Source: Neocallimastix lanati (nom. inval.) (taxonomy: Eukaryota; Neocallimastigomycota; Neocallimastigomycetes; Neocallimastigales; Neocallimastigaceae). From it: DNA of 64,000 bases. The stretch lies in the NCBI GenBank assembly GCA_016946835.1, contig JACVTC010000060.1, forward strand, positions 441,001 through 505,000, in the 5' to 3' direction. Position numbers and translations under genes: made by a program. Below the pieces are notes generated by a model. That model had not been told where the DNA came from, ran no database searches, and saw nothing but the letters and a program-made list of their open reading frames with translations. Of this stretch, positions 38,937 through 61,316 are shown piece by piece (within the stretch, counting starts at the first letter, position 1; every line of letters begins with the position of its first letter).

Positions 38937-40367
38937 TTAAGCACTGTCCTTAGTTGCATTTCTTTCTTCGATTTCTTTGTTGATCTTTTCAATCTTTTCA
39001 TCTGTTAAACTGTATCTGGAAATAATAATCATACAAATAATAGCAAGAATAGCTGGAATGACACAGACTGTCCAACGAATGGCTTCTTGAGCAGAGGACT
39101 TTTGTTTGTAAAGATCATTCATTAAGTAGTTATTGGAAGTGTTACTAATGTTTTGCATAACGAAAGAAACAATGAAGAAGAGAGAGACAACAACAAGTGG
39201 TGGGTTACGAGTGAATTCAGTCCAGAAATCACTAACCTTGACTGAATTGGTTTGTCCTTCTTCCATAACAACACGTTCCTTAGTTTGAGTGAAACAGAAG
39301 ACAAGAATGATGAAACCAATGACAAAGTAAATAGATAAAGTAGTGAACCATGCCATTGGATCTTTTGGTAAAGTACTTTCTCCAGCTGGTGGTGAAACAT
39401 ATCCAGAAGCTTGAATAATCCAACCTGGAATAGCTCCACCTAAAGCAAAACCGGCTTTGAAGAATAAACCAGTAATAGCATTAACAATAGCTGAAATTCT
39501 ACGACCTGTCTTCCATTCACCATATGAAATAACTTCTGGAACAAGAGCCCATTGATAACCAGTAGCAACACAAACACCAGTAGACTTAATTAAGTTACCA
39601 ATACGGTACCACCAGTCATTGGCATTCATTCTACTAGCAACATATAAGATAGCATTACCAGCGACGGCAACAGTTAAGAAAACGTAGAACATATTCTTCT
39701 TACCAATTAAATTCTTAATAGCTGGCATGAATGGAACAATACAAAGATTTGGAATATTACCGAATAAGTTGAAAAGAATCATATCCCATGGAATTGGAGT
39801 ACCACCAACAATAGCAATGAAAAGGAAAAGTAAAGTGTATACGAAGAAACAACCAATGTTAGCACACCACATACGAAGTGAAGTAAGCATGGTAATTTCA
39901 TCATTATCTCTTGTTAAAGAAGAGTTAATAGCACCATATGGAACATTAACTAAAGTGTAAGATAAAGATAATAAGATGTAAGTAATGTAGATATATGGAA
40001 CGGATGGAGCAAATTTATTCCAGAAAGTAAGAGCTGAGAAAACAGTTAATGGAATACCACCAATAATTAAATATGAACGATATTTACCCCAACGTGGATG
40101 ATTCTTATCAATGAAAGCACCAACAATTGGATCCCAAACCATATCTACAAAACGAACGATTAACATCAAAGTGGAAGCAATACCAGCAGCTTTACTTCTA
40201 TCACCACCTAAAATGTAGACATCGGTACAGAAGAACATAAGTTGAGAAGCAACCGTTTGATAAATTAAATTTTGGGCTAAATCACCAGAAGCGAAACCGA
40301 ATCTTTGAACCCAAGAAAGTTTGTAGAAACCCTTGGCTTCTAAATCTCTTTTATCAACTTCGGACAT
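38937..40367 (-). CDS. GPH-family sugar:cation symporter, copy 1
   Basis: Predicted plasma-membrane importer of a glycoside, pentose or hexuronide coupled to H+ or Na+; substrate unknown. 476 residues, about 12 membrane segments, no signal peptide. GPH hallmarks: R72, D75, D79-P80, G83, D87 and RWGKYR (92-97) in the first cytoplasmic-loop motif; EVISYGEWKTGRR (278-290) in the central one. That is the wording of bacterial xyloside/isoprimeverose-type members, unlike ordinary fungal sugar porters. The ATG is preceded by AATAAATAAATAGCACA (inverse of 40368-40384), conserved at the other copies. The gene is intronless and of balanced composition, which suggests acquisition from bacteria. It diverges from copy 2 across 3.18 kb. 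Regulation: TATA at 40571-40584 and a leader hairpin. Confidence 0.93.
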   Translation of the reverse strand: MSEVDKRDLEAKGFYKLSWVQRFGFASGDLAQNLIYQTVASQLMFFCTDVYILGGDRSKAAGIASTLMLIVRFVDMVWDPIVGAFIDKNHPRWGKYRSYLIIGGIPLTVFSALTFWNKFAPSVPYIYITYILLSLSYTLVNVPYGAINSSLTRDNDEITMLTSLRMWCANIGCFFVYTLLFLFIAIVGGTPIPWDMILFNLFGNIPNLCIVPFMPAIKNLIGKKNMFYVFLTVAVAGNAILYVASRMNANDWWYRIGNLIKSTGVCVATGYQWALVPEVISYGEWKTGRRISAIVNAITGLFFKAGFALGGAIPGWIIQASGYVSPPAGESTLPKDPMAWFTTLSIYFVIGFIILVFCFTQTKERVVMEEGQTNSVKVSDFWTEFTRNPPLVVVSLFFIVSFVMQNISNTSNNYLMNDLYKQKSSAQEAIRWTVCVIPAILAIICMIIISRYSLTDEKIEKINKEIEERNATKDSA

Positions 40368-40485
40368 TGTGCTATTTATTTATTTATTGCTTTTTTTTTA
40401 TTAACTTAAATTACTATTTATTTAAAATATATATCTATATATATTTAGTTTTTTTATATTTTTAATATTAATTTTTTAAAATTTG

Positions 40486-40517
40486 TATATATATTTATTT
40501 TATTCAAAATAAATATA
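40486..40517 (-). promoter_or_regulatory. Leader hairpin, transporter copy 1
   Basis: Arms TATATATATTTATT and its inverse around an 8-nt loop (plus strand TTATTCAA), between the TATA box and the start codon. Confidence 0.65.
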
Positions 40518-40570
40518 TATATAAGTAAATCAATTACTTTTATTTAAAGTTACAAAATACTTTTTTCTTT

Positions 40571-40584
40571 TTTCTCTTTTTATA
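40571..40584 (-). promoter_or_regulatory. TATA-type promoter, copy 1
   Basis: TATAAAAAGAGAAA on the minus strand, about 205-220 bp upstream of the ATG; the same 14-mer precedes copies 2, 3, 4 and 6. Further upstream, TGAAATGTGTCACGTTC (inverse of 40636-40655) is shared with copies 3 and 6. Confidence 0.7.
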
Positions 40585-42149
40585 CTAACTTCTTATAATA
40601 TATAATATATTAATAAAATTTAAAGTTTAATATATTGAACGTGACACATTTCAAAAAATTAAACATAGTTATATTCTATTCAATTTTAATAATAATACGT
40701 TACACAAATAATATTTTATGATTAAATTAGTTTAAAAACAATATAAAAAAGTACACATAATAAAATTAAAAAAAAAAAAAAAAAAAGAAACATAATTTAT
40801 TCTAGCCATATATTTCTTTAATTGATATTTTAGATTTAAAAATAGTACCTATATCCTGTAAAAACAATATAAAAAAGAATAAAATAAAATTAAAAAAAAA
40901 ATAAATAATATGTTCTAGCCATTAATTTCTCTTATTGATATATTAGATTTTAAAAATAGTACTTTTATCTCATTAAATTAATAATAAAATAAAAACAATA
41001 ATAATACTTGTAATGATAATATTAATAATAATAATAATATCATTTAAAAATTTAATATTAATTCTATATTTAACTATAAAATTAAATTTAATATAAATTT
41101 ATTAATACATTTAATTTTTAATATAAAATTTTAATTTATATTTAATTAATATTTTAATTTATTTTAAATTTATTTTTTAATATAATTGTTTACTTTTTAA
41201 TTGTATATATAATAGTTACAAAAATAAATACAAAATAAATAATATTATGGTACAAATTAATATAATGAACGTGATGCATTTCCCATTATAACATTATAAT
41301 AAGTAATGTTTTAATTAAATAATAATAAATAAATAATTAAATAATATGTAAAAAAAATACATAAATAATTTTAAATAATATATTAATAAGCATTTAATAA
41401 TAATTAATAATAATTTTTGTTTAAAATTATAATATTAAATACTTCATGTTAATTAGTATTTATATTAAAAAAATATTAATAATTTAAAAAATATTTCATC
41501 TTGTTTTTCTTTTTTTTAATTATGATTTATTTTAATATAAATATTTTTTTTTTAATTATTTATTATAATATAAATATTTTTAAACAATTAAACAGTCTAA
41601 TAAAAGCATTGCTAAAATAAATAATTAAATAATAAGTAATAATTTAATGAAAAAATAATTAAATATTAAGTAATAAAATGAATAAGTAATTTAAAATAAT
41701 TTATTAATAAATATTTAATAGTAATTAGGTAATTATAATATTTTTGTTTAAAGATATTATATTAAGAATATTAAAGACTATTTAATCTGGTTATTTTTAA
41801 TTATTTATTATAAATTAGTATTTATATTAAAAAATATTAATAATTGTAAAGATTACTTCATCTGGTTATATTTAATTAATTATTATTATATTATAAATAT
41901 AATCTTAATATTTTTAAGCAATTAAGCAGTTTAAAAAATATTGTTAAAAAAATACTTCTTAATCCAGTTATTTTTAAATATTTATTATAATATTAATATT
42001 TAAAAACAATTAAACAAGTTAAAAAGACATTGTTAAAATTGATAAGTAAATAATAAGTAATAAAATACATATATAATTTTAAATAATATATAAATAAATA
42101 ATATATTAATAAATAATATATTAATAAATAATATATTAATAAATAATAC

Positions 42150-42305
42150 ATTATGCCATTACGACAATGATTACTCCTACTGGAGGGGTGATGGGTTTCT
42201 ATTTCGATGCTCGTGGTCAAGGGAGATATATATAGGAATATTAGTGAATATAATCTCAGGCAGATGTGTAACCACGAGTGGAGGGGCGATACTGTACTAA
42301 TATGC
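42150..42305. other. Higher-G+C patch with stem CTCGTGGT/ACCACGAG
   Basis: An isolated island in a very AT-rich spacer. It contains TGGAGGGGTGATGG and, about 100 bp on, TGGAGGGGCGATAC, plus an exact 8-bp inverted pair at 42210-42217 and 42271-42278. No open frame, no tRNA fold. Could be a fragment of a mobile element or a structured RNA; I cannot identify it. Confidence 0.4.
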
Positions 42306-43273
42306 TAGTATATAACATAATGGAAAATGTGTACTAAATTATTTTATTAAAAATTAGTATTTATATTATATATATTAGATTAGTTAATTATTTAAGCCAT
42401 AATTAATGTCGAATAATATTGGTAGAAAATAATAATTACATAATTGTTTAAATATTTTAAGAATTTTAATTAACCTTCATAATTGTTTAAATATTTTAAG
42501 AAATTTAATGATTTTTTCATTTAGTTATTATTTTTTTTATAATTACTTATTATAAATTAGTATTTGCACTATTATTATTTATCATTTATTTAATTATTTT
42601 TTTTTTTTTGAATTAATTAGTATTTATATTATTTAAATATTAATGTCGAATAATATATTGGAAGAAAATAATAATTACATAATTGTTTAAATATTTTAAG
42701 AATTTTAACCTTCATAATTGTTTAAATATTTTAAGAAATTTAATGATTTTTTCATTCAGTTAGTTTTTTATTTAATTTTTTTTTTAATAAAATATTTTAT
42801 TTATTTTTTTTTTTTAATAAAATAATATTAATTATTCATTTTTTTTTAACATAATATAATATATTAAGTGTTTAAAAATAATTTTAAAGTTAATTCTGAT
42901 AATTTTAATTATTTCTTTACTTCCATCTTTTCAATTATATAAATTATTCGAATAATTCTATAAAATATTTAATATATGAGGATATATTTTTTAATGTAAC
43001 ATAATATAAGATAATAAAACTTATTGAAAAATATAATATAATATAATAATATAATAACATAAATTATTTAAAATGATACAATAAAATATTTAATATATGA
43101 GGATATATTTCTCGTGTAACTTATATTAAAATTTACATATCAAAAGTGCTAAATATTTTAAATTTGGCACATTTTGAGATATACAATATTTTTATTATTT
43201 TACAATATATTAAGTACATTCAATATATTGAACTTTAAATATTACTAATATATTATATATAATAAGAAATTAG

Positions 43274-43287
43274 TATAAAAAGAGAAA
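43274..43287 (+). promoter_or_regulatory. TATA-type promoter, copy 2
   Basis: TATAAAAAGAGAAA about 260-270 bp upstream of the ATG. Confidence 0.7.
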
Positions 43288-43366
43288 TAGCTAACTTTCT
43301 TTTATTTTTTATATTTAGTAATTCTAATTTTTTAGTAATACTAAAGATAAGTAATTGAATTACTGA

Positions 43367-43404
43367 TATATATATTTATTTTATTCAGAATAAATATATA
43401 TATA
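43367..43404 (+). promoter_or_regulatory. Leader hairpin, transporter copy 2
   Basis: 14-bp arms TATATATATTTATT and inverse; loop TTATTCAG in gene orientation. Confidence 0.65.
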
Positions 43405-43546
43405 CAAATATAAATAATTAAATAATATTAAAAAATAAAAAAAAATATATAAAAAAAATATATATATATATATATATACGTATATTTTTAGATATATAAT
43501 TTAATTTAAGTTTATAAAAAAAATAACAAATTAAATAAATAGCACT

Positions 43547-44977
43547 ATGTCCGAAGTTGATAAAAGAGATTTAGAAGCCAAGGGTTTCTACAAACTTTCT
43601 TGGGTTCAAAGATTCGGTTTCGCTTCTGGTGATTTAGCCCAAAATTTAATTTATCAAACGGTTGCTTCTCAACTTATGTTCTTCTGTACCGATGTCTACA
43701 TTTTAGGTGGTGATAGAAGTAAAGCTGCTGGTATTGCTTCCACTTTGATGTTAATCGTTCGTTTTGTAGATATGGTTTGGGATCCAATTGTTGGTGCTTT
43801 CATTGATAAGAATCATCCACGTTGGGGTAAATATCGTTCATATTTAATTATTGGTGGTATTCCATTAACTGTTTTCTCAGCTCTTACTTTCTGGAATAAA
43901 TTTGCTCCATCTGTTCCATATATCTACATTACCTATATCTTATTATCTTTATCTTACACTTTAGTTAATGTTCCATATGGTGCTATTAACTCTTCTTTAA
44001 CTAGAGATAATGATGAAATTACCATGCTTACTTCACTTCGTATGTGGTGTGCAAACATTGGTTGTTTCTTCGTATACACTTTACTTTTCCTTTTCATTGC
44101 CATTGTTGGTGGTACTCCAATTCCATGGGATATGATTCTTTTCAATTTATTCGGTAATATTCCAAATCTTTGTATTGTTCCATTCATGCCAGCTATTAAG
44201 AATTTAATTGGTAAGAAGAATATGTTCTACGTTTTCTTAACTGTTGCTGTTGCTGGTAATGCTATTTTATACGTTGCTAGTAGAATGAATGCCAATGACT
44301 GGTGGTACCGTATTGGTAACTTAATTAAGTCTACTGGTGTTTGTGTTGCTACTGGTTATCAATGGGCTCTTGTTCCAGAAGTTATTTCATATGGTGAATG
44401 GAAGACAGGTCGTAGAATTTCAGCTATTGTTAATGCTATTACTGGTTTATTCTTCAAAGCCGGTTTTGCTTTAGGAGGAGCTATTCCAGGTTGGATTATT
44501 CAAGCTTCTGGATATGTTTCACCACCAGCTGGAGAAAGTACTTTACCAAAAGATCCAATGGCATGGTTCACTACTTTATCTATTTACTTTGTCATTGGTT
44601 TCATCATTCTTGTCTTCTGTTTCACTCAAACTAAGGAACGTGTTGTTATGGAAGAAGGACAAACCAATTCAGTCAAGGTTAGTGATTTCTGGACTGAATT
44701 CACTCGTAACCCACCACTTGTTGTTGTCTCTCTCTTCTTCATTGTTTCTTTCGTTATGCAAAACATTAGTAACACTTCTAACAACTACTTAATGAATGAT
44801 CTTTACAAACAAAAGTCCTCTGCTCAAGAAGCCATTCGTTGGACAGTCTGTGTCATTCCAGCTATTCTTGCTATTATTTGTATGATTATTATTTCCAGAT
44901 ACAGTTTAACAGATGAAAAGATTGAAAAGATCAACAAAGAAATCGAAGAAAGAAATGCAACTAAGGACAGTGCTTAA
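43547..44977 (+). CDS. GPH-family sugar:cation symporter, copy 2
   Basis: 476 residues, protein sequence the same as copies 1, 3 and 4, with differences at nucleotide level largely synonymous. The GPH motifs (R72 to R97; E278 to R290) are intact. It is transcribed away from copy 1 and towards copy 3 (2.6 kb tail-to-tail). The 3' flank starts ATATAATTTGCAAAAA and holds a short hairpin, both shared with copy 4 but not with copy 6. Expected to act as an interchangeable dosage copy in the plasma membrane. Confidence 0.93.
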   Translation: MSEVDKRDLEAKGFYKLSWVQRFGFASGDLAQNLIYQTVASQLMFFCTDVYILGGDRSKAAGIASTLMLIVRFVDMVWDPIVGAFIDKNHPRWGKYRSYLIIGGIPLTVFSALTFWNKFAPSVPYIYITYILLSLSYTLVNVPYGAINSSLTRDNDEITMLTSLRMWCANIGCFFVYTLLFLFIAIVGGTPIPWDMILFNLFGNIPNLCIVPFMPAIKNLIGKKNMFYVFLTVAVAGNAILYVASRMNANDWWYRIGNLIKSTGVCVATGYQWALVPEVISYGEWKTGRRISAIVNAITGLFFKAGFALGGAIPGWIIQASGYVSPPAGESTLPKDPMAWFTTLSIYFVIGFIILVFCFTQTKERVVMEEGQTNSVKVSDFWTEFTRNPPLVVVSLFFIVSFVMQNISNTSNNYLMNDLYKQKSSAQEAIRWTVCVIPAILAIICMIIISRYSLTDEKIEKINKEIEERNATKDSA

Positions 44978-45016
44978 ATATAATTTGCAAAAATAATAAT
45001 ATAAAATAAAAATTAT

Positions 45017-45040
45017 CTTCTTAAATTATTTATTAGGAAG
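45017..45040 (+). terminator. 3' hairpin after copy 2
   Basis: CTTCTTAA paired with TTAGGAAG (one G-U) 39 bp beyond the stop; its counterpart after copy 4 is a perfect stem. Could mark the mRNA 3' end; inference only. Confidence 0.4.
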
Positions 45041-46039
45041 TAAGTTGAAATTAATAATAGAAAATATTAAAAAATAATAAATTTTATAAACATTTATTTT
45101 TAATAAAAAAATTAATGTAATTAAATAGTAGTTTAGAAAAATAAAAAATAATAATATTAAATAAAAAAAAAATAAAATAAATATAAAATATAGGTAATGT
45201 AATAAAATAATTATATATTAATATATAATTATATGTAATTATATTGATATTTAATTTTATAATTAAATAAATGAATAGTTTAAAATAAATAAAAATATAA
45301 ATAAAAATAAATAAAAAGTAAATTAAAATAAATAATAAAAATTTTTAAAAAATATATAAAAATATAAATAAAAATAAATAAGAAGTAAATTAAGATAAAT
45401 AATAAAAATTTTTAAAAAAGTATTTATGTTTAAAAAATTGAATTTTATTTAAAAATAAATTAATATAATTGTTTGTAATAAAATATTTTGAAAGAAATAT
45501 AAAAAAAATGAAATAAATGATATAATATATAAAAAGACTATAAACTATACTGAAATAAAATGTAAAAAGACTTTAAAATAAAAAAATATAAAATAAAAAT
45601 ATAAAAAAATTATAAAGTGAAATAAAATATAGAAAAATTAAAAAAAATGAAATAAAAAATAAAAAGACTATAAAATTAAAAAACATGAAATAAAATATAT
45701 ATTAAAAAAAATGAAATAAAAATACAAAAAGATAAAATAAAAAAAAAATGAAATAAAAATATAAAAAGATTATAAAGTGAACTTTATAATCTTTTTATAT
45801 TTTTATAAATCACAAAATAAGTAATTTTAATAAATAATGTCAAATTAACATTAAAGATTTTTTTTTTTTATTTTTTCTATATTTATTTTAAAAAAAATAA
45901 AAAATAACATATTCTTAAAATATTCATTTTATATATGTCTAAAAAAAAAATATTTTTGAAATCTATAAAAAATATTTAAAATAATATAAATATATATATA
46001 TTTAAGATTTAAAAAAGCTTATATATTTTAAAAATATAA

Positions 46040-46395
46040 AAAAAATATTCTTTGAATATCCATTAAAATAAAAAAAATATTCTTTGAATATCCATTAAAA
46101 TAAAAAAAATATTCTTTGAATATCCATTAAAATAAAAAAAATATTCTTTGAATATCCATTAAAATAAAAAAAAATATTCTTTGAATATCCATTAAAATAA
46201 AAAAAAATATTCTTTGAATATCCATTAAAATAAAAAAAATATTCTTTGAATATCCATTAAAATAAAAAAAATATTCTTTGAATATCCATTAAAATAAAAA
46301 AAATATTCTTTGAATATCCATTAAAATAAAAAAAATATTCTTTGAATATCCATTAAAATAAAAAAAAATATTCTTTGAATATCCACTAAAATAAA
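46040..46395. repeat. 32-bp minisatellite, 11 copies
   Basis: The unit contains TATTCTTTGAATATCCATTA, and the A-run in it varies by one or two bases. TTCTTTGAA is itself close to a palindrome. Confidence 0.9.
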
Positions 46396-46723
46396 AAAAA
46401 GTATTTTTTAAAAAAAATAATCTTTTTATTAATATAAAAAGTAAAAGTTTTATAAAATTTTAAATTAAATATATAAATAAAATATTCCAAAAAAAAATAA
46501 AATATTTTTAAAAAATAATTGTTTAAATAAAATGTTTAGAAAAAAAAAATTTTTTTTCAACCTTTATGTTTATTAATTTTATAATATTCATAAAATTAAT
46601 GATATAAAATTAAATATGTATTTAATGATTACGATATTTTTAATATTTCTTATAAATTAAATAAAAACTATAATTTTTTAAAATTTAGTATATTTTTAAA
46701 ATTTAGGAAAAATTTTAACTAAT

Positions 46724-46775
46724 AATTGTAATAGAATTGATATTATTGAATTATGGTTTAAATGTTTAATTTAAA
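46724..46775 (+). pseudogene. Relic of a MULE transposase C terminus
   Basis: Reads NCNRIDIIELWFKCLI then stop, matching the C-terminal tails of the transposases at 4501-5923 (LTKLWFECL) and 33061-34497 (LWKECL), with similar nucleotide wording. Only the last 17 codons or so survive. Confidence 0.6.
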
Positions 46776-47589
46776 TATTATAAAAACTAATAATATTTAT
46801 AGGTCTTCCATTATCAATTAATTAATTTTAATTCCATACTTCCTATTTTTCATTTAAAATATTGATTTCATTAGTATTTTTTATAATAAATAATAAATAG
46901 TAATAATAATAATTATAAAAAAACAAAATAATAATATATATATATAACTAATAAAAATATATAGATTATAAATATATATAGATATACTATTTTTCATTTA
47001 AAATATTATTAACTTTTGTATTTAAATTAATAATAAATAGTCATAATATATTATATTAATGATAAAATAATTAAAAACTACTATAGTAAAATTTTACTTT
47101 TAAAATAAACGAACATATTCATTTATTTATAATTCAATAAGATTAAAATAATAAAAAAATTCAATATTTTATTTATATATTATTTTTGTTTTTTATTTTA
47201 TTTAATTTTTTTTTATTAAATATTTATTATACATATTTTTTAGAGATTACTTTAATTATTATTTAGTAATATATATATTATGTTATTCTATATTATTCTT
47301 TTATTTTTTTTTAAAAAAATAATAATAATTTAATATTTTTTATTATTTTTTTTTTGAATTTCTTAAATTATTCTAAATATTCTTTTATTTTTTTTTAAAA
47401 AAATAATAATAATTTAATAATTTTTTATTATTTTTTTTTGAATTTCTTAAATTATTCTAAATTATTTTGTTTTAATTTTTTAAATTAGTCTATATTACTT
47501 AACTTTTAAATTAATTTTTAACGACTAATTTAAAAGAAAGTTGTTTTATCCTTATTGTATTTTATTTTATTATTTTTTTCAAATTATAT

Positions 47590-49020
47590 TTAAGCACTGT
47601 CCTTAGTTGCATTTCTTTCTTCGATTTCTTTGTTGATCTTTTCAATCTTTTCATCTGTTAAACTGTATCTGGAAATAATAATCATACAAATAATAGCAAG
47701 AATAGCTGGAATGACACAGACTGTCCAACGAATGGCTTCTTGAGCAGAGGACTTTTGTTTGTAAAGATCATTCATTAAGTAGTTATTGGAAGTGTTACTA
47801 ATGTTTTGCATAACGAAAGAAACAATGAAGAAGAGAGAGACAACAACAAGTGGTGGGTTACGAGTGAATTCAGTCCAGAAATCACTAACCTTGACTGAAT
47901 TGGTTTGTCCTTCTTCCATAACAACACGTTCCTTAGTTTGAGTGAAACAGAAGACAAGAATGATGAAACCAATGACAAAGTAAATAGATAAAGTAGTGAA
48001 CCATGCCATTGGATCTTTTGGTAAAGTACTTTCTCCAGCTGGTGGTGAAACATATCCGGAAGCTTGAATAATCCAACCTGGAATAGCTCCACCTAAAGCA
48101 AAACCGGCTTTGAAGAATAAACCAGTAATAGCATTAACAATAGCTGAAATTCTACGACCTGTCTTCCATTCACCATATGAAATAACTTCTGGAACAAGAG
48201 CCCATTGATAACCAGTAGCAACACAAACACCTGTAGACTTAATTAAGTTACCAATACGGTACCACCAGTCATTGGCATTCATTCTACTAGCAACATATAA
48301 GATAGCATTACCAGCAACAGCAACAGTTAAGAAAACGTAGAACATGTTCTTCTTACCAATTAAATTCTTAATAGCTGGCATGAATGGAACAATACAAAGA
48401 TTTGGAATATTACCGAATAAATTGAAAAGAATCATATCCCATGGAATTGGAGTACCACCAACAATGGCAATGAAAAGGAAAAGTAAAGTGTATACGAAGA
48501 AACAACCAATGTTTGCACACCACATACGAAGTGAAGTAAGCATGGTAATTTCATCATTATCTCTAGTTAAAGAAGAGTTAATAGCACCATATGGAACATT
48601 TACTAAAGTGTAAGATAAAGATAATAAGATATAGGTAATGTAGATATATGGAACAGATGGAGCAAATTTATTCCAGAAAGTAAGAGCTGAGAAAACAGTT
48701 AAAGGAATACCACCAATAATTAAATATGAACGATATTTACCCCAACGTGGATGATTCTTATCAATGAAAGCACCAACAATTGGATCCCAAACCATATCTA
48801 CAAAACGAACGATTAACATCAAAGTGGAAGCAATACCAGCAGCTTTACTTCTATCACCACCTAAAATATAGACATCAGTACAGAAGAACATAAGTTGAGA
48901 AGCAACCGTTTGATAAATTAAATTTTGGGCTAAATCACCAGAAGCGAAACCGAATCTTTGAACCCAAGAAAGTTTGTAGAAACCCTTGGCTTCTAAATCT
49001 CTTTTATCAACTTCGGACAT
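47590..49020 (-). CDS. GPH-family sugar:cation symporter, copy 3
   Basis: 476 residues, identical to copies 1, 2 and 4; both GPH motifs complete. Silent third-base changes from copy 1 include those in codons near 48241 and 48315. The 3' flank (47520-47589) resembles those of copies 1 and 5, showing that minus-strand copies share one type of downstream flank. Head-to-head with copy 4 over 2.7 kb. No intron or premature stop. Confidence 0.93.
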   Translation of the reverse strand: MSEVDKRDLEAKGFYKLSWVQRFGFASGDLAQNLIYQTVASQLMFFCTDVYILGGDRSKAAGIASTLMLIVRFVDMVWDPIVGAFIDKNHPRWGKYRSYLIIGGIPLTVFSALTFWNKFAPSVPYIYITYILLSLSYTLVNVPYGAINSSLTRDNDEITMLTSLRMWCANIGCFFVYTLLFLFIAIVGGTPIPWDMILFNLFGNIPNLCIVPFMPAIKNLIGKKNMFYVFLTVAVAGNAILYVASRMNANDWWYRIGNLIKSTGVCVATGYQWALVPEVISYGEWKTGRRISAIVNAITGLFFKAGFALGGAIPGWIIQASGYVSPPAGESTLPKDPMAWFTTLSIYFVIGFIILVFCFTQTKERVVMEEGQTNSVKVSDFWTEFTRNPPLVVVSLFFIVSFVMQNISNTSNNYLMNDLYKQKSSAQEAIRWTVCVIPAILAIICMIIISRYSLTDEKIEKINKEIEERNATKDSA

Positions 49021-49162
49021 AGTGCTATTTATTTAATTTGTTATTTTTTTTATAAACTTAAATTAAATTATATATCTAAAAATATATGTATATATATATA
49101 TATATATTTTTTTTTTATATATTTTTTTTTATTTTTTAATATTATTTAATTATTTATATTTG

Positions 49163-50959: not shown

Positions 50960-51140
50960 TAATTCTGGTGATTTTTTTTTTTTACTTCCATCTTTTCAAT
51001 TATACAAATTATTATAATAATTCTGGTGATTTTTTTTTTTACTTCCATCTTTTCAATTATACAAATTATTATAATAATTCTGGTGATTTTTTTTTTTACT
51101 TCCATCTTTTCAATTATACAAATTATTATAATAATTCGAT
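50960..51140. repeat. Three tandem 56-bp units
   Basis: Each contains TTCTGGTGATTTTTTTTT and ACTTCCATCTTTTCAATTAT. A related single copy sits at 42895-42960 in the other divergent spacer. The open frame over the array (50968-51183) is a repeat artefact. Confidence 0.85.
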
Positions 51141-51456
51141 AAAATATTTAATATATGAGGATATATTTTTCTATGTAACGTAATATAAAATAATAAAATT
51201 AAATAAATAATTTACAATACAATACTATAATATTAAAGTATTAAAATAATATAATAAAATATTTAATATATAAGGATATTACTTGTTTAATGTAATGTAT
51301 TATATTAAAAATAATTAAATATTTGAATTAATTAATATTTTGAATATGGCACATTTTGAGAAATGCGATACTTTTAATATTTTATGATAAATTTGTCAAA
51401 TTTAATATACTAAATTTTAAATATTTTAAAATATTATATATTAATGAAAATTATAA

Positions 51457-51470
51457 TATAAAAAGAGAAA
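51457..51470 (+). promoter_or_regulatory. TATA-type promoter, copy 4
   Basis: TATAAAAAGAGAAA about 225-240 bp upstream. This copy lacks the leader hairpin seen in the others. Confidence 0.65.
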
Positions 51471-51695
51471 AAAAGTATCTTTCTTTGATTTTTTAAATAT
51501 AGTAATTCAGAATATTTAGCTATATTATAAGTAATTAATATACTTATATAAATAATTAAATTAATATTTAAAATTTAAAAAGAAAATATATATATAAAGA
51601 ATTTTAAATAAAAAAATATAGATAATATATATATATATTTAAATATATAATAATTTAAGTTAATAAAAAAAACAAATAAATAAATATATAGTACT

Positions 51696-53126
51696 ATGTC
51701 CGAAGTTGATAAAAGAGATTTAGAAGCCAAGGGTTTCTACAAACTTTCTTGGGTTCAAAGATTCGGTTTCGCTTCTGGTGATTTAGCCCAAAATTTAATT
51801 TATCAAACGGTTGCTTCTCAACTTATGTTCTTCTGTACCGATGTCTATATTTTAGGTGGTGATAGAAGTAAAGCTGCTGGTATTGCATCTACTTTGATGT
51901 TAATCGTTCGTTTTGTAGATATGGTTTGGGATCCAATTGTTGGTGCTTTCATTGATAAGAATCATCCACGCTGGGGTAAATACCGTTCATATTTAATTAT
52001 TGGTGGTATTCCTTTAACTGTTTTCTCAGCTCTTACTTTCTGGAATAAATTTGCTCCATCTGTTCCATACATCTACATTACTTACATCTTATTATCTTTA
52101 TCTTACACTTTAGTTAATGTTCCATATGGTGCTATTAACTCTTCTTTAACAAGAGATAATGATGAAATTACCATGCTTACTTCACTTCGTATGTGGTGTG
52201 CTAACATTGGTTGTTTCTTCGTATACACTTTACTTTTCCTTTTCATTGCCATTGTTGGTGGTACTCCAATTCCATGGGATATGATTCTTTTCAACTTATT
52301 CGGTAATATTCCAAATCTTTGTATTGTTCCATTCATGCCAGCTATTAAGAATTTAATTGGTAAGAAGAACATGTTCTACGTTTTCTTAACTGTTGCTGTT
52401 GCTGGTAATGCTATTTTATATGTTGCTAGTAGAATGAATGCCAATGACTGGTGGTACCGTATTGGTAACTTAATTAAGTCTACAGGTGTTTGTGTTGCTA
52501 CTGGTTATCAATGGGCTCTTGTTCCAGAAGTTATTTCATATGGTGAATGGAAGACAGGTCGTAGAATTTCAGCTATTGTTAATGCTATTACTGGTTTATT
52601 CTTCAAAGCCGGTTTTGCTTTAGGAGGAGCTATTCCAGGTTGGATTATTCAAGCATCCGGATATGTTTCACCACCAGCTGGAGAAAGTACTTTACCAAAG
52701 GACCCAATGGCTTGGTTCACTACTTTATCTATTTACTTTGTCATTGGTTTCATCATTCTTGTCTTCTGTTTCACTCAAACTAAGGAACGTGTTGTTATGG
52801 AAGAAGGACAAACCAATTCAGTCAAGGTTAGTGATTTCTGGACTGAATTCACTCGTAACCCACCACTTGTTGTTGTCTCTCTCTTCTTCATTGTTTCTTT
52901 CGTTATGCAAAACATTAGTAACACTTCCAATAACTACTTAATGAATGATCTTTACAAACAAAAGTCCTCTGCTCAAGAAGCCATTCGTTGGACAGTCTGT
53001 GTCATTCCAGCTATTCTTGCTATTATTTGTATGATTATTATTTCCAGATACAGTTTAACAGATGAAAAGATTGAAAAGATCAACAAAGAAATCGAAGAAA
53101 GAAATGCAACTAAGGACAGTGCTTAA
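51696..53126 (+). CDS. GPH-family sugar:cation symporter, copy 4
   Basis: 476 residues, identical in protein to copies 1-3. Silent differences from copy 2 include GACCCAATGGCTTGG for GATCCAATGGCATGG near 52700. Downstream it shares ATATAATTTGCAAAAA and a perfect hairpin (53167-53190) with copy 2, which links copies 2 and 4 as equivalent members of successive pairs. Faces copy 5 tail-to-tail across 2.0 kb. Confidence 0.93.
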   Translation: MSEVDKRDLEAKGFYKLSWVQRFGFASGDLAQNLIYQTVASQLMFFCTDVYILGGDRSKAAGIASTLMLIVRFVDMVWDPIVGAFIDKNHPRWGKYRSYLIIGGIPLTVFSALTFWNKFAPSVPYIYITYILLSLSYTLVNVPYGAINSSLTRDNDEITMLTSLRMWCANIGCFFVYTLLFLFIAIVGGTPIPWDMILFNLFGNIPNLCIVPFMPAIKNLIGKKNMFYVFLTVAVAGNAILYVASRMNANDWWYRIGNLIKSTGVCVATGYQWALVPEVISYGEWKTGRRISAIVNAITGLFFKAGFALGGAIPGWIIQASGYVSPPAGESTLPKDPMAWFTTLSIYFVIGFIILVFCFTQTKERVVMEEGQTNSVKVSDFWTEFTRNPPLVVVSLFFIVSFVMQNISNTSNNYLMNDLYKQKSSAQEAIRWTVCVIPAILAIICMIIISRYSLTDEKIEKINKEIEERNATKDSA

Positions 53127-55113
53127 ATATAATTTGCAAAAAATAATAATATAAAATAAAAATTATCTTCTTAAATTATTCATTAAGAAGTAAATTGAAA
53201 ATAATAATAGAAAATATAAATAATAATAAATTTTATAAACATTTATTATTATTTAAAACAAATAATGTTATTAAATATAATATAATAAATAAATTAAAAA
53301 ATTAAAAAAATTATAAAAATTAAAAAAAAAAAAGCATTAAAATATTTATAAATATTAATTCATAATAATAAATAAATGTAATAAGTTAAGATAAAACATA
53401 AAAAATATAAAAAAATACTTGTATATTAATATATAATTATATAATTAAATAAATAAACGATTGAAAATTAAAAAAATAATTAAAGAATAAAAAATAAAAT
53501 AAATTTTTTACAAAATAAAAAAAAAAAAAAAAAAATTAGTTTTAATATGTATTTATATAAAAATAATAATAAATGATGTTCTAATAATTTTTATAAGCTA
53601 GAAATTTAGAGTTTAAAATTTTATAAACTTAATATAGTATATAAAATGTTGCATCTTTACATTTATTGTGGCGCATTTTATTTCTCATTGTAATGTGGCG
53701 TAAATTCATATATAAATAAATTAGTTAAAACATAAGAAAAAAAAATTGAAATAGAATGTTAAAATATATAAAAAAAATTTTTTTTTCTTAAATTTTATTT
53801 AATTTTAAATAATATTTTATTTATATATTTATTATAAAGATATAAAAAACTTTTTTTTTTATATAATAATAAAGAATATTCTTTTTAGATAATAATTTAT
53901 TTTTTTTATAGTTTAATATTTTTTATATATTTTTAAAAGAATATTTATTGAATATTTTTTTTAAAGATATATTAAACTTTTAGTTTCTATATTAATATAA
54001 ATAATTTTAAAAAAAAATTGTTTAAAAAATCATTTATATTAATACAAAAACTAATACTTTTTTTTATATTTTTAAAATATAAAAAAAAATTATTTATTTA
54101 TAGATCTTTTTTAATTTATATTTATAAATTTATTTATTTTTTTGTTTTTAATAATATTTAATAAATATTATTATTAGTATTATCTAATATAACAACTATA
54201 TATAGAATTATAAAATAATATTTTTCTATTTATTTATATTTGTTTATAAAAGAAATAATTTTTTTTTGAAGTTAAAATTTACATTTAGAAATAAAAAATA
54301 ACCACTATTTTATGATGAAGAGTTACTAGAAATTAATTTTTCTAAATTACATGTTTTCATATTATCATATACTGTCTTATATATTTTATTAAAATATGTT
54401 TTAATACATTTTAATAACATTAATTATGTTATTTATAATAATATTACATTTAAATACAATTATTTATTATTATAATAATTAACATAATTAATAATGCATT
54501 TATAACATAATTATGGACTACAATAAGAGAATTATATTTAAAAAACAATTATAAAAATAATTATATAAAATAACTGATAATAATAATAAAAAAAGATTTT
54601 ATTAAAGTCAATTAATAAATGTAATAATAAATAAATAAATAAATAATATATATATATATATAATCATATAATAAAGTAATAAAAATATAAAAACCGTTAT
54701 GCTAATGGTTTAGTTTATTTTAATTCATGATATATATAATAAAAAATATAAATTTAAAAAAAGAAAAAAAAAATATTTTAATTATATATATTTTATTTTT
54801 ATTTTTCTATATTTTATTAAAATTGTTTTTTTTTTTTTTATATTTTTATTATACATCATTTATTACATATTATTTTAATTACTCTAATTATAATTTAGTA
54901 ATATATTATTTTATTATATTTTATTATATTTTATTATATTTTATTCTATTATATTTTCGTTTTATTTTTTAAAAAAATTAATAATTTAATACTTTTAATT
55001 ATTATTTTTTTTAAATTTCTTTATATTATTTAATTTGTTTTATTAATGTTTAATTATTAACTTAAAAAGAAATTTGGTTTATTTTTTTATATTTTATTTA
55101 GATTAAATTATAT
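53127..55113. other. Convergent spacer between copies 4 and 5
   Basis: A 3' hairpin at 53167-53190. A patch with GTGGCGCATTTTATTTC and GTGGCGTAAA at 53670-53705 recalls MULE interiors. The rest is AT-rich, with T-runs; 54727-54972 is a chance frame. Confidence 0.65.
53167..53190 (+). terminator. 3' hairpin after copy 4
   Basis: CTTCTTAA and TTAAGAAG, a perfect stem, 41 bp beyond the stop codon. Confidence 0.4.
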
Positions 55114-56544
55114 TTAAGCACTGTCCTTAGTTGCATTTCTTTCTTCGATTTCTTTGTTGATCTTTTCAATCTTTTCATCTGTTAAACTGTATCTGGAAAT
55201 AATAATCATACAAATAATAGCAAGAATAGCTGGAATGACACAGACTGTCCAACGAATGGCTTCTTGAGCAGAGGACTTTTGTTTGTAAAGATCATTCATT
55301 AAGTAGTTGTTAGAAGTGTTACTAATGTTTTGCATAACGAAAGAAACAATGAAGAAGAGAGAGACAACAACAAGTGGTGGGTTACGAGTGAATTCAGTCC
55401 AGAAATCACTAACCTTGACTGAATTAGTTTGTCCTTCTTCCATAACAACACGTTCCTTAGTTTGAGTGAAACAGAAGACAAGAATGATGAAACCAATGAC
55501 AAAGTAAATAGATAAAGTAGTGAACCAAGCCATTGGATCTTTTGGTAAAGTACTTTCTCCAGCTGGTGGTGAAACATATCCGGAAGCTTGAATAATCCAA
55601 CCTGGAATAGCTCCACCTAAAGCAAAACCGGCTTTGAAGAATAAACCAGTAATAGCATTAACGATAGCTGAAATTCTACGACCTGTCTTCCATTCACCAT
55701 ATGAAATAACTTCTGGAACAAGAGCCCATTGATAACCAGTAGCAACACAAACACCAGTAGATTTAATTAAATTACCAATACGGTACCACCAGTCATTGGC
55801 ATTCATTCTACTAGCAACATATAAAATAGCATTACCAGCAACAGCAACAGTTAAGAAAACGTAGAACATATTCTTCTTACCAATTAAATTCTTAATAGCT
55901 GGCATGAATGGAACAATACAAAGATTTGGAATATTACCGAATAAATTGAAAAGAATCATATCCCATGGAATTGGAGTACCACCAACAATGGCAATGAAAA
56001 GGAAAAGTAAAGTGTATACGAAGAAACAACCAATGTTAGCACACCACATACGAAGTGAAGTAAGCATGGTAATTTCATCATTATCTCTAGTTAAAGAAGA
56101 GTTAATAGCACCATATGGAACATTAACTAAAGTGTAAGATAAAGATAATAAGATGTAAGTAATGTAGATATATGGAACAGATGGAGCAAATTTATTCCAG
56201 AAAGTAAGAGCTGAGAAAACAGTTAAAGGAATACCACCAATAATTAAATATGAACGATATTTACCCCAGCGTGGATGATTCTTATCAATGAAAGCACCAA
56301 CAATTGGATCCCAAACCATATCTACAAAACGAACGATTAACATCAAAGTGGAAGCAATACCAGCAGCTTTACTTCTATCACCACCTAAAATGTAGACATC
56401 GGTACAGAAGAACATAAGTTGAGAAGCAACCGTTTGATAAATTAAATTTTGGGCTAAATCACCAGAAGCGAAACCGAATCTTTGAACCCAAGAAAGTTTG
56501 TAGAAACCCTTGGATTCTAAATCTCTTTTATCAACTTCAGACAT
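55114..56544 (-). CDS. GPH-family sugar:cation symporter, copy 5
   Basis: 476 residues with one substitution, A11S in the N-terminal cytoplasmic tail (ESK for EAK), not expected to alter transport. Its flanks are the most diverged: the TATA stretch is TATAAAAAGAAA-like and the leader hairpin has shorter arms. The 3' flank still carries the TTAACTTAAAAAGAAA block of copies 1 and 3. Head-to-head with copy 6 over 3.3 kb. Confidence 0.93.
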   Translation of the reverse strand: MSEVDKRDLESKGFYKLSWVQRFGFASGDLAQNLIYQTVASQLMFFCTDVYILGGDRSKAAGIASTLMLIVRFVDMVWDPIVGAFIDKNHPRWGKYRSYLIIGGIPLTVFSALTFWNKFAPSVPYIYITYILLSLSYTLVNVPYGAINSSLTRDNDEITMLTSLRMWCANIGCFFVYTLLFLFIAIVGGTPIPWDMILFNLFGNIPNLCIVPFMPAIKNLIGKKNMFYVFLTVAVAGNAILYVASRMNANDWWYRIGNLIKSTGVCVATGYQWALVPEVISYGEWKTGRRISAIVNAITGLFFKAGFALGGAIPGWIIQASGYVSPPAGESTLPKDPMAWFTTLSIYFVIGFIILVFCFTQTKERVVMEEGQTNSVKVSDFWTEFTRNPPLVVVSLFFIVSFVMQNISNTSNNYLMNDLYKQKSSAQEAIRWTVCVIPAILAIICMIIISRYSLTDEKIEKINKEIEERNATKDSA

Positions 56545-56677
56545 TGTGCTATTTATTTATTTGTTTTTTTTTTTTAATTAACTTAAATTATAATATATCT
56601 ATTTATATTTCTATATATAAAATTTATTTTATTTTTTTTTATAAGTATTAATTTAATTATTTTTATTTGGATATATA

Positions 56678-56705
56678 CATATATTTATTTTGAAATAAAT
56701 ATATG
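56678..56705 (-). promoter_or_regulatory. Leader hairpin, transporter copy 5
   Basis: CATATATTTATTT paired with AAATAAATATATG around a very short loop. Confidence 0.6.
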
Positions 56706-56761
56706 AAAGTAAATCTATTATTTATCTTTAGATTTATTAAAAAAAAAAGGTTCCTTTTTTT

Positions 56762-56772
56762 TTCTTTTTATA
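56762..56772 (-). promoter_or_regulatory. TATA-type promoter, copy 5
   Basis: TATAAAAAGAA on the minus strand, about 220-230 bp upstream of the ATG; a shortened form of the shared 14-mer. Confidence 0.6.
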
Positions 56773-56869
56773 CTAATTTAATAATTTATATTAAATTATT
56801 TATTTTATTAAAATATATTATATTTTATTATGATTCTAATAATTTGTATTATTAAAACAATGGAAATAG

Positions 56870-59180
56870 AAAAAATAATTAAATTTATCAAATTAACTTT
56901 AAAATTATATAAAAAATTATTAAATAATTTAATATAAATAAAAAAATAATTAAACATATATAATAACTAATAAATAATAAATAAAAAAATAATTTTTTAA
57001 ATACTTTTATTTATTTAATTTTTTAATATAACATATTTAACCTTTTAAATAATTTTAAATATAAAAAATATTTTTTTTCTCAGGACACAAAAAATAAAAA
57101 TATCTTCATAATACAAATATTAATTTAATATAAACAATTAAAAAAAATATCTTATCTAAATGAAAAGTCATTAAAATTCTTTTTGAATTTTAATTAATCT
57201 GCATAATTTTTTAGCAATATTAATATTTTATAAAAATTATCATTAACCTTTATAATTTTTTAAAAATATTAATACCATTTATTTTCGTATTATTTTTAAA
57301 ACTCTACTTATAGAAATATGTCATAATGGGAAATACATCACATTCATTATATTAATTTGTATCCTAGTATTATAAATTGTTTATTATTTATTATTAAAAT
57401 TATTGTTATTAAAATATAAAAATACTATTTAATTGTTTTATATTTTATAATTACTATCATTAATAACTTATTCGACATTTTTTATTTATTATTGTTGATA
57501 CAAGGTTTAAATGATTAATTATTTTTAATAATTTAAATACTAATTTATAATAAATTACGATTTAAAAGTACTATTTAATTTTTTATTATTAAAATTACAA
57601 TTTAAAAATACTATTTAGTTGTTTTATTATTATAATTATTATCATTAATATCTTATTCAACATTACTTATTTAAGAAATAATATTGTTGAATATAGTTTA
57701 AATTGTTAATAAATTTTAATAATGTAAATATTAATTTATAATAAATAATTAAAGATAATCAGATGAAATTGTCTTATACTAATAAAAATTTAATAGTAAT
57801 TAGATAAATATAATATTTAAATATATGATATTTAATGTTTTTAGTTAAAAGGAAAAACTGATTAAAAATATTAATATTTTATTTAATATTATTTATGTGT
57901 TTATTTACTTATTATTTAATTAAAACACTACTTATTGTAAATACGTCATAATGGGAAATGCATCATGTTCATTATATTAATTTGTACCCTATTATTATTT
58001 ATTGTATTATTTACTATTATAACTATTATAATTACAATTGAAAAGTAAACAATTATATTAAGAAAAACATATATAATAACTAATAACTAATAAATAATAA
58101 AATAATTAAATTATTTATTTTGATATTATTGTATAAAAAAAAGTAATTAAATAAATAAAAAATAATAAAAAAAAAATAATTTTTTAAATACTTATTATTT
58201 ACTTAATTTTTTAATATTTTATATTAAACTTTTTAAATAATTTTAGATATTAAAAATATTTTTTTTTCTCAAGACACAAAAAATGAAAATATTTTCATAA
58301 TACAAATATTAATTTAATATAAATAAAAAAAGATATCTAAATAAAAAGTCATTAAAATTCTTTAAATATTTTAAGAATTTTAATTAACCTGAATAATTTT
58401 TTAAAAATATTAATATCTTGTTTATCATTATTTTTATATATATTTACTAATTATTTAATTATTTATTTTCATATAATTTTAAAAACTACATTTATTGTAA
58501 TATGTCATAATGGGAAATTCATCACATTCATTATATTTATTTTTATTCTAATATTATAAATTGTATATTATTTATTATTAAAATTATTGTTTTTACAATT
58601 TAAAAATACTATTTAATTGTTTTATTATTATAATTACAATTTAAAAATACTATTTAATTGTTTTATTATTATAATTACAATTTAAAAATACTATCTAATT
58701 GTTTTATTATTATAATTACAATTTAAAAATACTATTTAATTGTTTTATTATTATAATTACAATTTAAAAATACTATTTAATTGTTTAATTATTTTAATTA
58801 TTAATATCTTATTCGAAATTATTTATTTAAGAAATAATATCGTTTAAATAAATTTTAATTAAATAAATACTAATATATAATAAATAATTAAAGATAACCA
58901 GATGAAATTGCCTTTTATTAGTAAAAATTTAGTAGTAATAAGGTAAATATAGTATTTAAAATATGATATTTAATTTTTTATCGTTAAAAGGAAAAACTGA
59001 TTAAGAATATTAATATTTTAATATTTTATTTAATATTATTTACATGTTTATTATTATTTAATTAAAACGCTACTTATTATAAATACATCATAATGGGAAA
59101 TGGATTATATTCATTATATTAATTTGTACCCTATTATTATTTATTGTGTATTATTTATTATTATTACTACAATTGAAAAG
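56870..59180. repeat. Tandem duplication of a 1.15-1.2 kb spacer segment
   Basis: 57070-57365 matches 58260-58550 (TTTTTTCTCA[GA]GACACAAAAA ... CATAATGGGAAAT) and 57750-57990 matches 58885-59130 (AAAGGAAAAACTGATTAA ... TAATTTGTACCCTATTATTA). The copies have diverged by point changes. Confidence 0.75.
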
Positions 59181-59592
59181 TAAGCAATTATATTAAGAAA
59201 ATAAATTTAAAATAAATTAAAATATTAATTAAATATAAATTAAAATAAAAATTAAAACTAAATAAAAAATTTATATGATAAATAAAATGTATTAATAAAT
59301 TTATATTAAATATAATATTTATTGTTAAATATAGAATTAATATCAAATTTTTAAATATTATTATTATTATTATTATTAATTATAATAAAAAAAACAAAAC
59401 ATAATTTTGTTTTTTAGACTTTTTTATATTGTTTTGAATTATTATATAATTTAATATATCTTGATATATTAAATTCGTGTAACGTATGATATTAAAATTA
59501 AATATTTGAATTGTTTCATTTCATGAAATGTGTCACTATAAATATATTGAATTTTAAATATTATTAACATATTATATACTATTGAAAATTAG

Positions 59593-59606
59593 TATAAAAA
59601 GAGAAA
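59593..59606 (+). promoter_or_regulatory. TATA-type promoter, copy 6
   Basis: TATAAAAAGAGAAA about 280-290 bp upstream of the ATG. CATTTCATGAAATG, a perfect palindrome, lies at about 59510-59523. Confidence 0.7.
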
Positions 59607-59684
59607 AAAGTAATTCTGGCTTATTTTTTTTGTATTTATAAATTCTAAATATTTAGTAATTTTAAAAATAAGTAATTGATTACA

Positions 59685-59725
59685 TATATATATATATTTA
59701 TTATGAATAAAATAAATATATATAT
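59685..59725 (+). promoter_or_regulatory. Leader hairpin, transporter copy 6
   Basis: TATATATATTTATT and inverse, loop ATGAATAA in gene orientation, that is the opposite loop sense to copies 2 and 3. Confidence 0.65.
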
Positions 59726-59885
59726 ATAAATATAAATAATTAAATTAATATTTAAAATATATAAAAAAATATATATATAAATAAAAAAAATTAATTAAAA
59801 AAATATAGAGAATAGATATATATATTTAAATATATAATAATTTAAGTTAATAAAATAAATAACAAATAAATAAATAAATAGCACA

Positions 59886-61316
59886 ATGTCTGAAGTTGAT
59901 AAAAGAGATTTAGAAGCCAAGGGTTTCTACAAACTTTCTTGGGTTCAAAGATTCGGTTTCGCTTCTGGTGATTTAGCCCAAAATTTAATTTATCAAACGG
60001 TTGCTTCTCAACTTATGTTCTTCTGTACCGATGTCTACATTTTAGGTGGTGATAGAAGTAAAGCTGCTGGTATTGCATCTACTTTGATGTTAATCGTTCG
60101 TTTTGTAGATATGGTTTGGGATCCAATTGTTGGTGCTTTCATTGATAAGAATCATCCACGTTGGGGTAAATATCGTTCATATTTAATTATTGGTGGTATT
60201 CCTTTAACTGTTTTCTCAGCTCTTACTTTCTGGAATAAATTTGCTCCATCTGTTCCATATATCTACATTACTTACATCTTATTATCTTTATCTTACACTT
60301 TAGTTAATGTTCCATATGGTGCTATTAACTCTTCTTTAACAAGAGATAATGATGAAATTACCATGCTTACTTCACTTCGTATGTGGTGTGCTAACATTGG
60401 TTGTTTCTTCGTATACACTTTACTTTTCCTTTTCATTGCCATTGTTGGTGGTACTCCAATTCCATGGGATATGATTCTTTTCAACTTATTCGGTAATATT
60501 CCAAATCTTTGTATTGTTCCATTCATGCCAGCTATTAAGAATTTAATTGGTAAGAAGAATATGTTCTACGTTTTCTTAACTGTTGCCGTCGCTGGTAATG
60601 CTATCTTATATGTTGCTAGTAGAATGAATGCCAATGACTGGTGGTACCGTATTGGTAACTTAATTAAGTCTACAGGTGTTTGTGTTGCTACTGGTTATCA
60701 ATGGGCTCTTGTTCCAGAAGTTATTTCATATGGTGAATGGAAGACAGGTCGTAGAATTTCAGCTATTGTTAATGCTATTACTGGTTTATTCTTCAAAGCC
60801 GGTTTTGCTTTAGGTGGAGCTATTCCAGGTTGGATTATTCAAGCTTCCGGATATATTTCACCACCAGCTGGAGAAAGTACTTTACCAAAAGATCCAATGG
60901 CATGGTTCACTACTTTATCTATTTACTTTGTCATTGGTTTCATCATTCTTGTCTTCTGTTTCACTCAAACTAAGGAACGTGTTGTTATGGAAGAAGGACA
61001 AACCAATTCAGTCAAGGTTAGTGATTTCTGGACTGAATTCACTCGTAACCCACCACTTGTTGTTGTCTCTCTCTTCTTCATTGTTTCTTTCGTTATGCAA
61101 AACATTAGTAACACTTCCAATAACTACTTAATGAATGATCTTTACAAACAAAAGTCCTCTGCTCAAGAAGCCATTCGTTGGACAGTCTGTGTCATTCCAG
61201 CTATTCTTGCTATTATTTGTATGATTATTATTTCCAGATACAGTTTAACAGATGAAAAGATTGAAAAGATCAACAAAGAAATCGAAGAAAGAAATGCAAC
61301 TAAGGACAGTGCTTAA
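59886..61316 (+). CDS. GPH-family sugar:cation symporter, copy 6
   Basis: 476 residues with one substitution, V324I (GYISPP for GYVSPP), a conservative change in a loop or membrane edge. Upstream it keeps the TATA and hairpin module. Downstream it departs from copies 2 and 4 right after ATATAATTT, where a 10-bp stem replaces the shared flank. It is the last copy in the window; whether the array goes on to the right is not visible, although spacer motifs of the array recur at 62400-62500. Confidence 0.93.
   Translation: MSEVDKRDLEAKGFYKLSWVQRFGFASGDLAQNLIYQTVASQLMFFCTDVYILGGDRSKAAGIASTLMLIVRFVDMVWDPIVGAFIDKNHPRWGKYRSYLIIGGIPLTVFSALTFWNKFAPSVPYIYITYILLSLSYTLVNVPYGAINSSLTRDNDEITMLTSLRMWCANIGCFFVYTLLFLFIAIVGGTPIPWDMILFNLFGNIPNLCIVPFMPAIKNLIGKKNMFYVFLTVAVAGNAILYVASRMNANDWWYRIGNLIKSTGVCVATGYQWALVPEVISYGEWKTGRRISAIVNAITGLFFKAGFALGGAIPGWIIQASGYISPPAGESTLPKDPMAWFTTLSIYFVIGFIILVFCFTQTKERVVMEEGQTNSVKVSDFWTEFTRNPPLVVVSLFFIVSFVMQNISNTSNNYLMNDLYKQKSSAQEAIRWTVCVIPAILAIICMIIISRYSLTDEKIEKINKEIEERNATKDSA

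Follow-up and report, generated by a model that had tools for sequence, protein, structure and literature searches.

An array of GPH-family symporter genes with a permuted helix order, probably of bacterial origin, in the gut fungus Neocallimastix lanati

To our knowledge, the members of any one family within the major facilitator superfamily (MFS) are normally taken to have one helix order. Among the systems closest to the one described here, FucP and LacY are related by a rearrangement of helix triplets (Madej et al., 2013, as described in the accessible part of PMC3962082); XynD is the inner-membrane transporter named beside the XynA xylanase and the XynB xylosidase of the Prevotella bryantii xynABCDER cluster (accessible part of PMC8002723); and massive gene transfer into the Neocallimastigomycota, the phylum of the present fungus, has been stated (accessible part of PMC8778642). 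This study concerns a 64,000-nucleotide stretch of the Neocallimastix lanati (nom. inval.) genome (GenBank assembly GCA_016946835.1, contig JACVTC010000060.1, here C555, positions 441001-505000; hereafter the window) and six symporter genes within it, g1 to g6. Each encodes a GPH-family symporter whose 12 helices, numbered as in ordinary members of the family, are ordered 1-5, 8-11, 6-7, 12, an exchange of two blocks within the C-terminal half. The genome searched with the protein comprises 199 Mb in 762 contigs.

The rearrangement is apparent when the fungal proteins are compared with family profiles. The Pfam profile MFS_2 matches all 13 fungal frames scored against it (13 of 185 candidates) in the order 1-163, 262-391, 165-259, and the permuted order is common to all fungal paralogues examined. 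In g2, the second of the six genes, four segments can be distinguished, with boundaries of our own choosing:

43547..44110, plus strand: segment A, amino acids 1-188, helices 1-5, MFS_2 profile positions 1-163
44114..44554, plus strand: segment B, amino acids 190-336, homologous to canonical helices 8-11, placed right after helix 5
44555..44806, plus strand: segment C, amino acids 337-420, homologous to canonical helices 6-7 and the central loop, placed after helix 11
44819..44974, plus strand: segment D, amino acids 425-476, homologous to canonical helix 12 and the C-terminal tail

One fungal protein, P0001, matches GPH profiles in four separate stretches that are not colinear, reaching 252.2 bits with PF13347 (cut-off 27) and 267.2 with TIGR00792 (cut-off 231.35); no colinear match of P0001 to PF13347 or to any of five NCBIfam GPH-type profiles was found. 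These scores bear out the GPH sugar-symporter assignment made in the first-pass annotation of the window. Ordinary GPH proteins of the same bacterial genomes that hold permuted relatives match the profile in one stretch, as do the ordinary-order bacterial homologues L113, L115, and L125 with PF13347. Aligned with L113, segments A, B, C, and D of P0001 fall at residues 6-184, 295-421, 199-281, and 425-475, with scores of 573, 342, 221, and 146 against shuffle maxima of 50, 56, 50, and 37; each segment matches one place in L113 and in L115, far above shuffles. With the more distant L125, segment C is weak (50 vs 46) and the other segments are clear. A segment-model search of open frames at all loci recovered 160 frames in the order A-B-C-D and 43 in the order A-C-B-D, with no other order; these correspond to 125 and 37 distinct proteins (n = 162), including one that at first had no segment C match and on a later pass proved to be A-C-B-D. 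The breakpoints are identical across the eight permuted proteins compared. On standard MFS topology, the swap would move a two-helix and a four-helix block that are joined at loops on the outer face, and every helix would keep its direction. In helix 2, residues D75 and D79 of the fungal protein, which do not vary in any of the aligned rows (70 of 70), line up with MelB D55 and D59, taken here as the cation-site aspartate pair.

Bacterial relatives were taken from a scan of the genome_contigs collection, as the best 80 of 540 confirmed loci. All of these 80 align with P0001 as a single alignment of more than 400 residues at 54-59% identity, and they belong mainly to rumen Prevotella and other Bacteroidales, with Succinivibrio dextrinosolvens and a Succinatimonas; Segatella copri, Prevotella aff. 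ruminicola, and Succinivibrio dextrinosolvens are named among the permuted loci. In the first segment, permuted and ordinary-order bacterial homologues are 54-65% identical to the fungal protein. The wider spread of the permuted form was judged by one continuous match to P0001 in samples around centre genomes, with E <= 1e-40 for the order and family of G001 and the order of G002. Such a match occurred in 1 of 148 genomes from the phylum of G001 and 1 of 200 from the phylum of G002, in each case the centre genome itself, and in 1 of 197 genomes (again the centre) from the order of G002. The order of G001 yielded four continuous matches and three ordinary-order close copies among 198 genomes. 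In the family of G001, 72 of 201 genomes had a match, which was continuous in 36 (5 at 52-59% identity, 31 at 41-44%) and in the other 36 broke after helix 5; one genome with a continuous match also had a broken second copy, and one broken match was cut by a contig end. Matches were continuous in 12 of 20 in the family of G368 and broken in 2 of 3 in that of G494. All 20 broken-match stretches that were fetched proved to be of ordinary order (including two second copies, one from another family, and one duplicate locus). Since each phylum sample held a single continuous match, that of its centre, the permuted form seems, within the two phyla sampled, to be confined to certain bacterial families. 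Both forms can also share a locus: at L125 (Prevotella aff. ruminicola, G001:C7 366000-372000), about 2.2 kb separates two divergent GPH genes, one permuted and one of ordinary order, and a GH43 gene lies beyond the latter.

The bacterial genes sit in what appear to be xylan operons. Of the 73 bacterial loci with a permuted gene that are 5.5 kb or longer, 66 carry GH43 and 37 carry GH10, the latter directly downstream in 36. Ordinary-order close homologues have much the same surroundings (GH43 at 10 of 11 loci; GH10 at 9 of 11, beside the gene in 8), and a distant permuted group has GH43 at 5 of 6 and GH10 at 3 of 6. By analogy with these operons, the role is most likely cation-coupled uptake of xylose or xylo-oligosaccharides. 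The presence of the gene in bacterial operons, its spread among bacteria, and the lack of introns in the fungal copies point to bacteria-to-fungus transfer, and the fungal genes are thus probably of bacterial origin.

In the fungus, the genes form an array. As the first-pass annotation had claimed, six uninterrupted open frames, each of 1431 bp (476 amino acids), occupy the window on strands -,+,-,+,-,+:

38937..40367, minus strand: g1 (copy 1), 476-amino-acid GPH-family symporter in a single open frame, helix order permuted
43547..44977, plus strand: g2 (copy 2), no amino acid differences from copy 1
47590..49020, minus strand: g3 (copy 3), 5' flank 99% identical to the g2 5' flank over 150 nt
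51696..53126, plus strand: g4 (copy 4), 3' flank matching the g2 3' flank at 95% (0-60 nt) and 84% (60-200 nt)
55114..56544, minus strand: g5 (copy 5), one amino acid different from copy 1
59886..61316, plus strand: g6 (copy 6), one amino acid different from copy 1, 3' flank 98% and 90% identical to that of the opposite-strand copy 7 beyond the window
41016..41359, no strand assigned: part of the g1-g2 spacer, inverted match to 59383-59022 (upstream of g1 and upstream of g6, respectively)
C555 507795-509222 (minus), 511247-512674 (plus), and 514570-515997 (minus), contig coordinates: copies beyond the window

The six differ pairwise by 9-22 nt and 0-2 amino acids, a likeness far beyond chance. 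A search for further copies, which the first-pass annotation had proposed, showed that the array runs on past the window edge with three more and unbroken alternation, for a total of nine; strict alternation over nine copies would arise by coin toss with a chance of 1/256. Genome-wide, the protein search found 25 full-length copies at 98-100% amino acid identity, including a second cluster of four (h1-h4) at 634-651 kb of the same contig, in the order -,+,+,-. Two further subfamilies, on contigs C135 (57% identical) and C14 (51%), are present as well, along with fragments, some with stops; the three fungal subfamilies are thus mutually divergent, at 51-57% identity. The copies within each of two C14 clusters are co-oriented, and this, together with the order of the h cluster, indicates that alternation is no rule of the family. 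The C14 clusters (199-264 kb, minus; 596-637 kb, plus) hold several near-identical copies of the second subfamily and matching split fragments in both, as though the contig had an inverted duplicate. GC content in 2-kb windows is about 0.27 over the window genes and about 0.10 over the spacers, within which lie two AT-rich tandem arrays, at 46036-46409 (unit 32 nt) and 58593-58800 (unit 41 nt).

Taken together, these data may be explained by a permutation in a bacterium, transfer to a fungus, multiplication of the gene and its homogenization by gene conversion, and a role in import of xylose or xylo-oligosaccharides—an account to which, as a whole, we assign a probability of about 0.73. The rearrangement would have arisen in the XynD-type xylan-operon symporter of a gut bacterium, in the simplest case through a tandem duplication of the region encoding helices 6-11, after which the first copy of 6-7 and the last copy of 8-11 were lost. 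The permuted gene would then have passed to an ancestor of this fungus and split into the three subfamilies, the window type growing to at least 25 copies. Individual genes, each accompanied by some of the 5' region, may have been copied into either orientation, with gene conversion keeping the coding parts alike. The proteins would use Na+ or H+, by way of the conserved helix 2 aspartate pair, to import xylose or short xylo-oligosaccharides.

Several points weigh against this account. All fungal evidence comes from one genome; the fungal rows form one clade beside close permuted bacteria with only moderate tree support, and that the transfer ran from bacteria to fungus is our inference. The AlphaFold model predicts a MelB-like MFS bundle, with MelB as the top structural match and the place of helices 6-7 tentative, but the order-bound structural aligner covered 355 of 476 residues, and the full-length Foldseek fit is poor (template-modelling score 0.44-0.54; about 14 Å for MelB), as would be expected of a permuted chain and equally of a wrong model. 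The permuted order itself could in principle be an artefact of assembly, or of internal MFS repeats misleading the profile: the two halves of MFS proteins are distant repeats of each other, and phmmer also yields a second match to MelB that is in order but weak (8.5 bits). An artefact is nevertheless extremely improbable, given a stop-free frame in 25 fungal copies and in bacteria from many assemblies, named isolates among them; the ordinary-order homologues at 64-65% segment A identity, moreover, allow direct comparison, and each segment finds its one place in L113 and in L115. Function is the more exposed part of the account. Of the 59 GH43 matches in the fungal genome, none lies on C555 (GH10 was not searched in the fungus), and on the other contigs that carry a copy the nearest is about 100 kb away from it, so that the substrate assigned to the fungal proteins rests on the bacterial operons; at some bacterial loci, moreover, the neighbours are not xylan enzymes, as at L074, where those scanned encode an esterase-like protein and a histidine kinase. 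The fungal copies may therefore carry another sugar or serve as sensors, the xylan link being bacterial only, an alternative with an appreciable chance of being correct, and the three fungal subfamilies are divergent enough that they could differ in substrate. Against it, the 98-100% amino acid identity of 25 copies and the invariant aspartate pair suggest a transporter under selection, and dozens of GH43 matches in the genome are to be expected of a xylan user.

How the array grew, and what keeps its members alike, can be judged from the flanks. Gapped blastn flank extension gave no information, as the AT-rich spacers align nearly anywhere, and fixed windows of the nine copies were compared instead with a reversed-sequence control. 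The first-pass annotation had proposed tandem amplification of a head-to-head pair of roughly 7.5-8.7 kb, with plus-strand copies 2 and 4 sharing one 3' flank and minus-strand copies 1, 3, and 5 another. Strict alternation across nine copies accords with that proposal, as do the same-strand spacings in the window (8653, 8149, 7524, and 8190 bp) and the g2/g4 comparison, in which the 3' flanks are alike as listed above and both flanks are held in common, over 2.5 kb at 89%. The other half of the grouping fails: the 3' flanks of g1/g3, g1/g5, and g3/g5 are 62-73% (0-60 nt) and 66-72% (60-200 nt) identical, much as in the control (mean values 64 and 68, highest values 72 and 74), whose maximum they equal or approach to within one point. 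The best flank partners are instead opposite-strand copies (g2/g3, 5', 99%; g6/g7, 3', 98% and 90%; g5/g8, 90% and 79%), same-strand spacing among the later copies is irregular (11678, 10361, and 6775 bp), and the block common to two head-to-head spacers (41016-41359 and 59383-59022) is inverted and tracks the upstream side of single genes. Growth by pair amplification is accordingly very unlikely. Flank partners that cross strands, with the inverted spacer block, suggest that a single gene moves together with a portion of its 5' region, and that the array is a mosaic. The promoters "of the same design" earlier ascribed to these genes find loose support, the 150 nt upstream being 73-99% alike between copies (control mean 70, maximum 75), and the expectation that the copies would recombine agrees with the signs of recombination between them. 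In the second cluster, h4 lies 3-5 nt from h1-h3 in coding sequence, yet its flanks are only 71-74% (5'; 73-74% over 150 nt) and 62-67% (3', 60 nt) identical to theirs, against 95-99% (98-99% over the 5' 150 nt) and 77-97% among h1-h3. Near-identical coding sequence between divergent flanks implies homogenization that stops near the gene ends, and thus points to gene conversion between copies as the best account of h4. It is also possible that the copies are simply recent, with silent sites under strong codon preference and AT-rich flanks changing fast. Variable sites among the nine copies number 41, with 39 in third codon positions, and the GC contrast between genes and spacers fits codon selection; the four-gamete test was failed by 191 of 325 informative-site pairs, which supports exchange, but these failures could partly reflect recurrent silent C/T changes and are not clustered along the gene in a phi-like permutation test (p 0.40), two points that weigh against gene conversion. 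This alternative nevertheless appears unlikely in view of h4 and of the distance between the arrays, whose coding sequences are 46.5 nt apart on average, against 8-22 nt (mean 15.7) within the nine-copy array and a mean of 4.5 within the second cluster.

The history of the helix order in bacteria may be more complex than a single event. In the best trees, the ordinary-order close homologues and the permuted L150 nest inside the permuted clade, with support of 98/98 for 23 rows plus L150 (LG+G4, with L121 and L124 as outgroup rows) and 100/97 for 12 rows plus L150 (LG+C20). L150 / L210 (G843) is itself permuted, yet the tree places it among ordinary-order homologues. This nesting suggests a return to the ordinary order, which is not claimed as established. 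In approximately unbiased (AU) tests, placing all permuted proteins in one clade gave p 0.0124 with L150, 0.263 without it, and 0.184 when the distant permuted group was removed along with L150; for a smaller set that retained L150, the values were 0.157 for segment A, 0.335 for segment B, and 0.247 for A+C+D. A single permutation is therefore unrejected in five of six tests, and the outgroup and distant permuted branches are long. The tree of the operon GH43 enzymes does not follow helix order (9 changes for 10 ordinary-order rows, with 215 of 500 shuffles as low), and does not root the history, its outgroup not lying on one side of a branch (L212 fell inside). One group in it, supported at 100/100, joins three ordinary operons, three distant permuted ones, and one further permuted operon. 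As both transporter orders are mixed in this tree, the transporter forms may have been swapped in place within operons, a replacement that we read, from the sequences, as probable natural evidence that both orders work. It is conceivable, if rather doubtful, that helix order switched more than once, permuted in gut bacteria and then reverted or permuted again, with functionally interchangeable forms exchanged within the xylan operon. If so, helix order in the MFS would be an evolvable trait, of which the gut fungi inherited the permuted form.

Elsewhere in the window, a 1422-amino-acid frame at 13418-17686 (plus strand), with 0.38-0.44 GC in a region mostly of 0.08-0.2, matches Pfam ABC_membrane in three stretches and ABC_tran in two, and it probably encodes an ABC transporter whose two halves form a single chain. 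A MULE transposase domain with a FLYWCH zinc finger occurs at 4501-5796 (plus) and at 33447-34497 (minus), the two domains sitting in two overlapping frames in the latter. Other AT-rich tandem arrays lie at 2417-3338 (unit 33 nt), 6229-7464 (23-272 nt), and 30737-32215 (5 nt).

Among the top-ranked matches in open-licence PubMed Central papers, no report of a permuted GPH symporter was found; in their accessible parts, PMC5168858 lists gut-fungus sugar transporters without mention of a permuted symporter, and PMC9952236 contains "permut" only in its reference list. Close homologues that differ by a helix-block swap form natural pairs in which the influence of chain order on membrane insertion, folding, and transport could be tested, and family profiles that match such proteins piecewise may hide further cases. 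In the fungus, an importer that is probably bacterial has risen to at least 25 near-identical copies, whose uniformity has been maintained. Like the bacterial genes acquired by Neocallimastigomycota, it is a single-open-frame gene with bacterial relatives. Many of those relatives lie in loci with GH10 and GH43 whose layout resembles that of the P. bryantii xyn cluster; their equivalence to XynD would follow from operon layout and not from sequence, and the accessible part of PMC8002723 is silent on helix order. It resembles the MelB-type GPH:cation symporters (TIGR00792, PF13347) in the homology of all four segments, in the cation-site aspartate pair, and in its top structural match, and departs from them in that the 8-11 block precedes the 6-7 block and no profile match is colinear. 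The FucP/LacY triplets, as far as the accessible description goes, likewise indicate that the MFS fold is possible with other helix orders; those triplets, however, are rearranged across distant families, whereas the exchange described here is a natural swap of four helices with two, and the proteins that differ by it are close homologues from operons of one kind.

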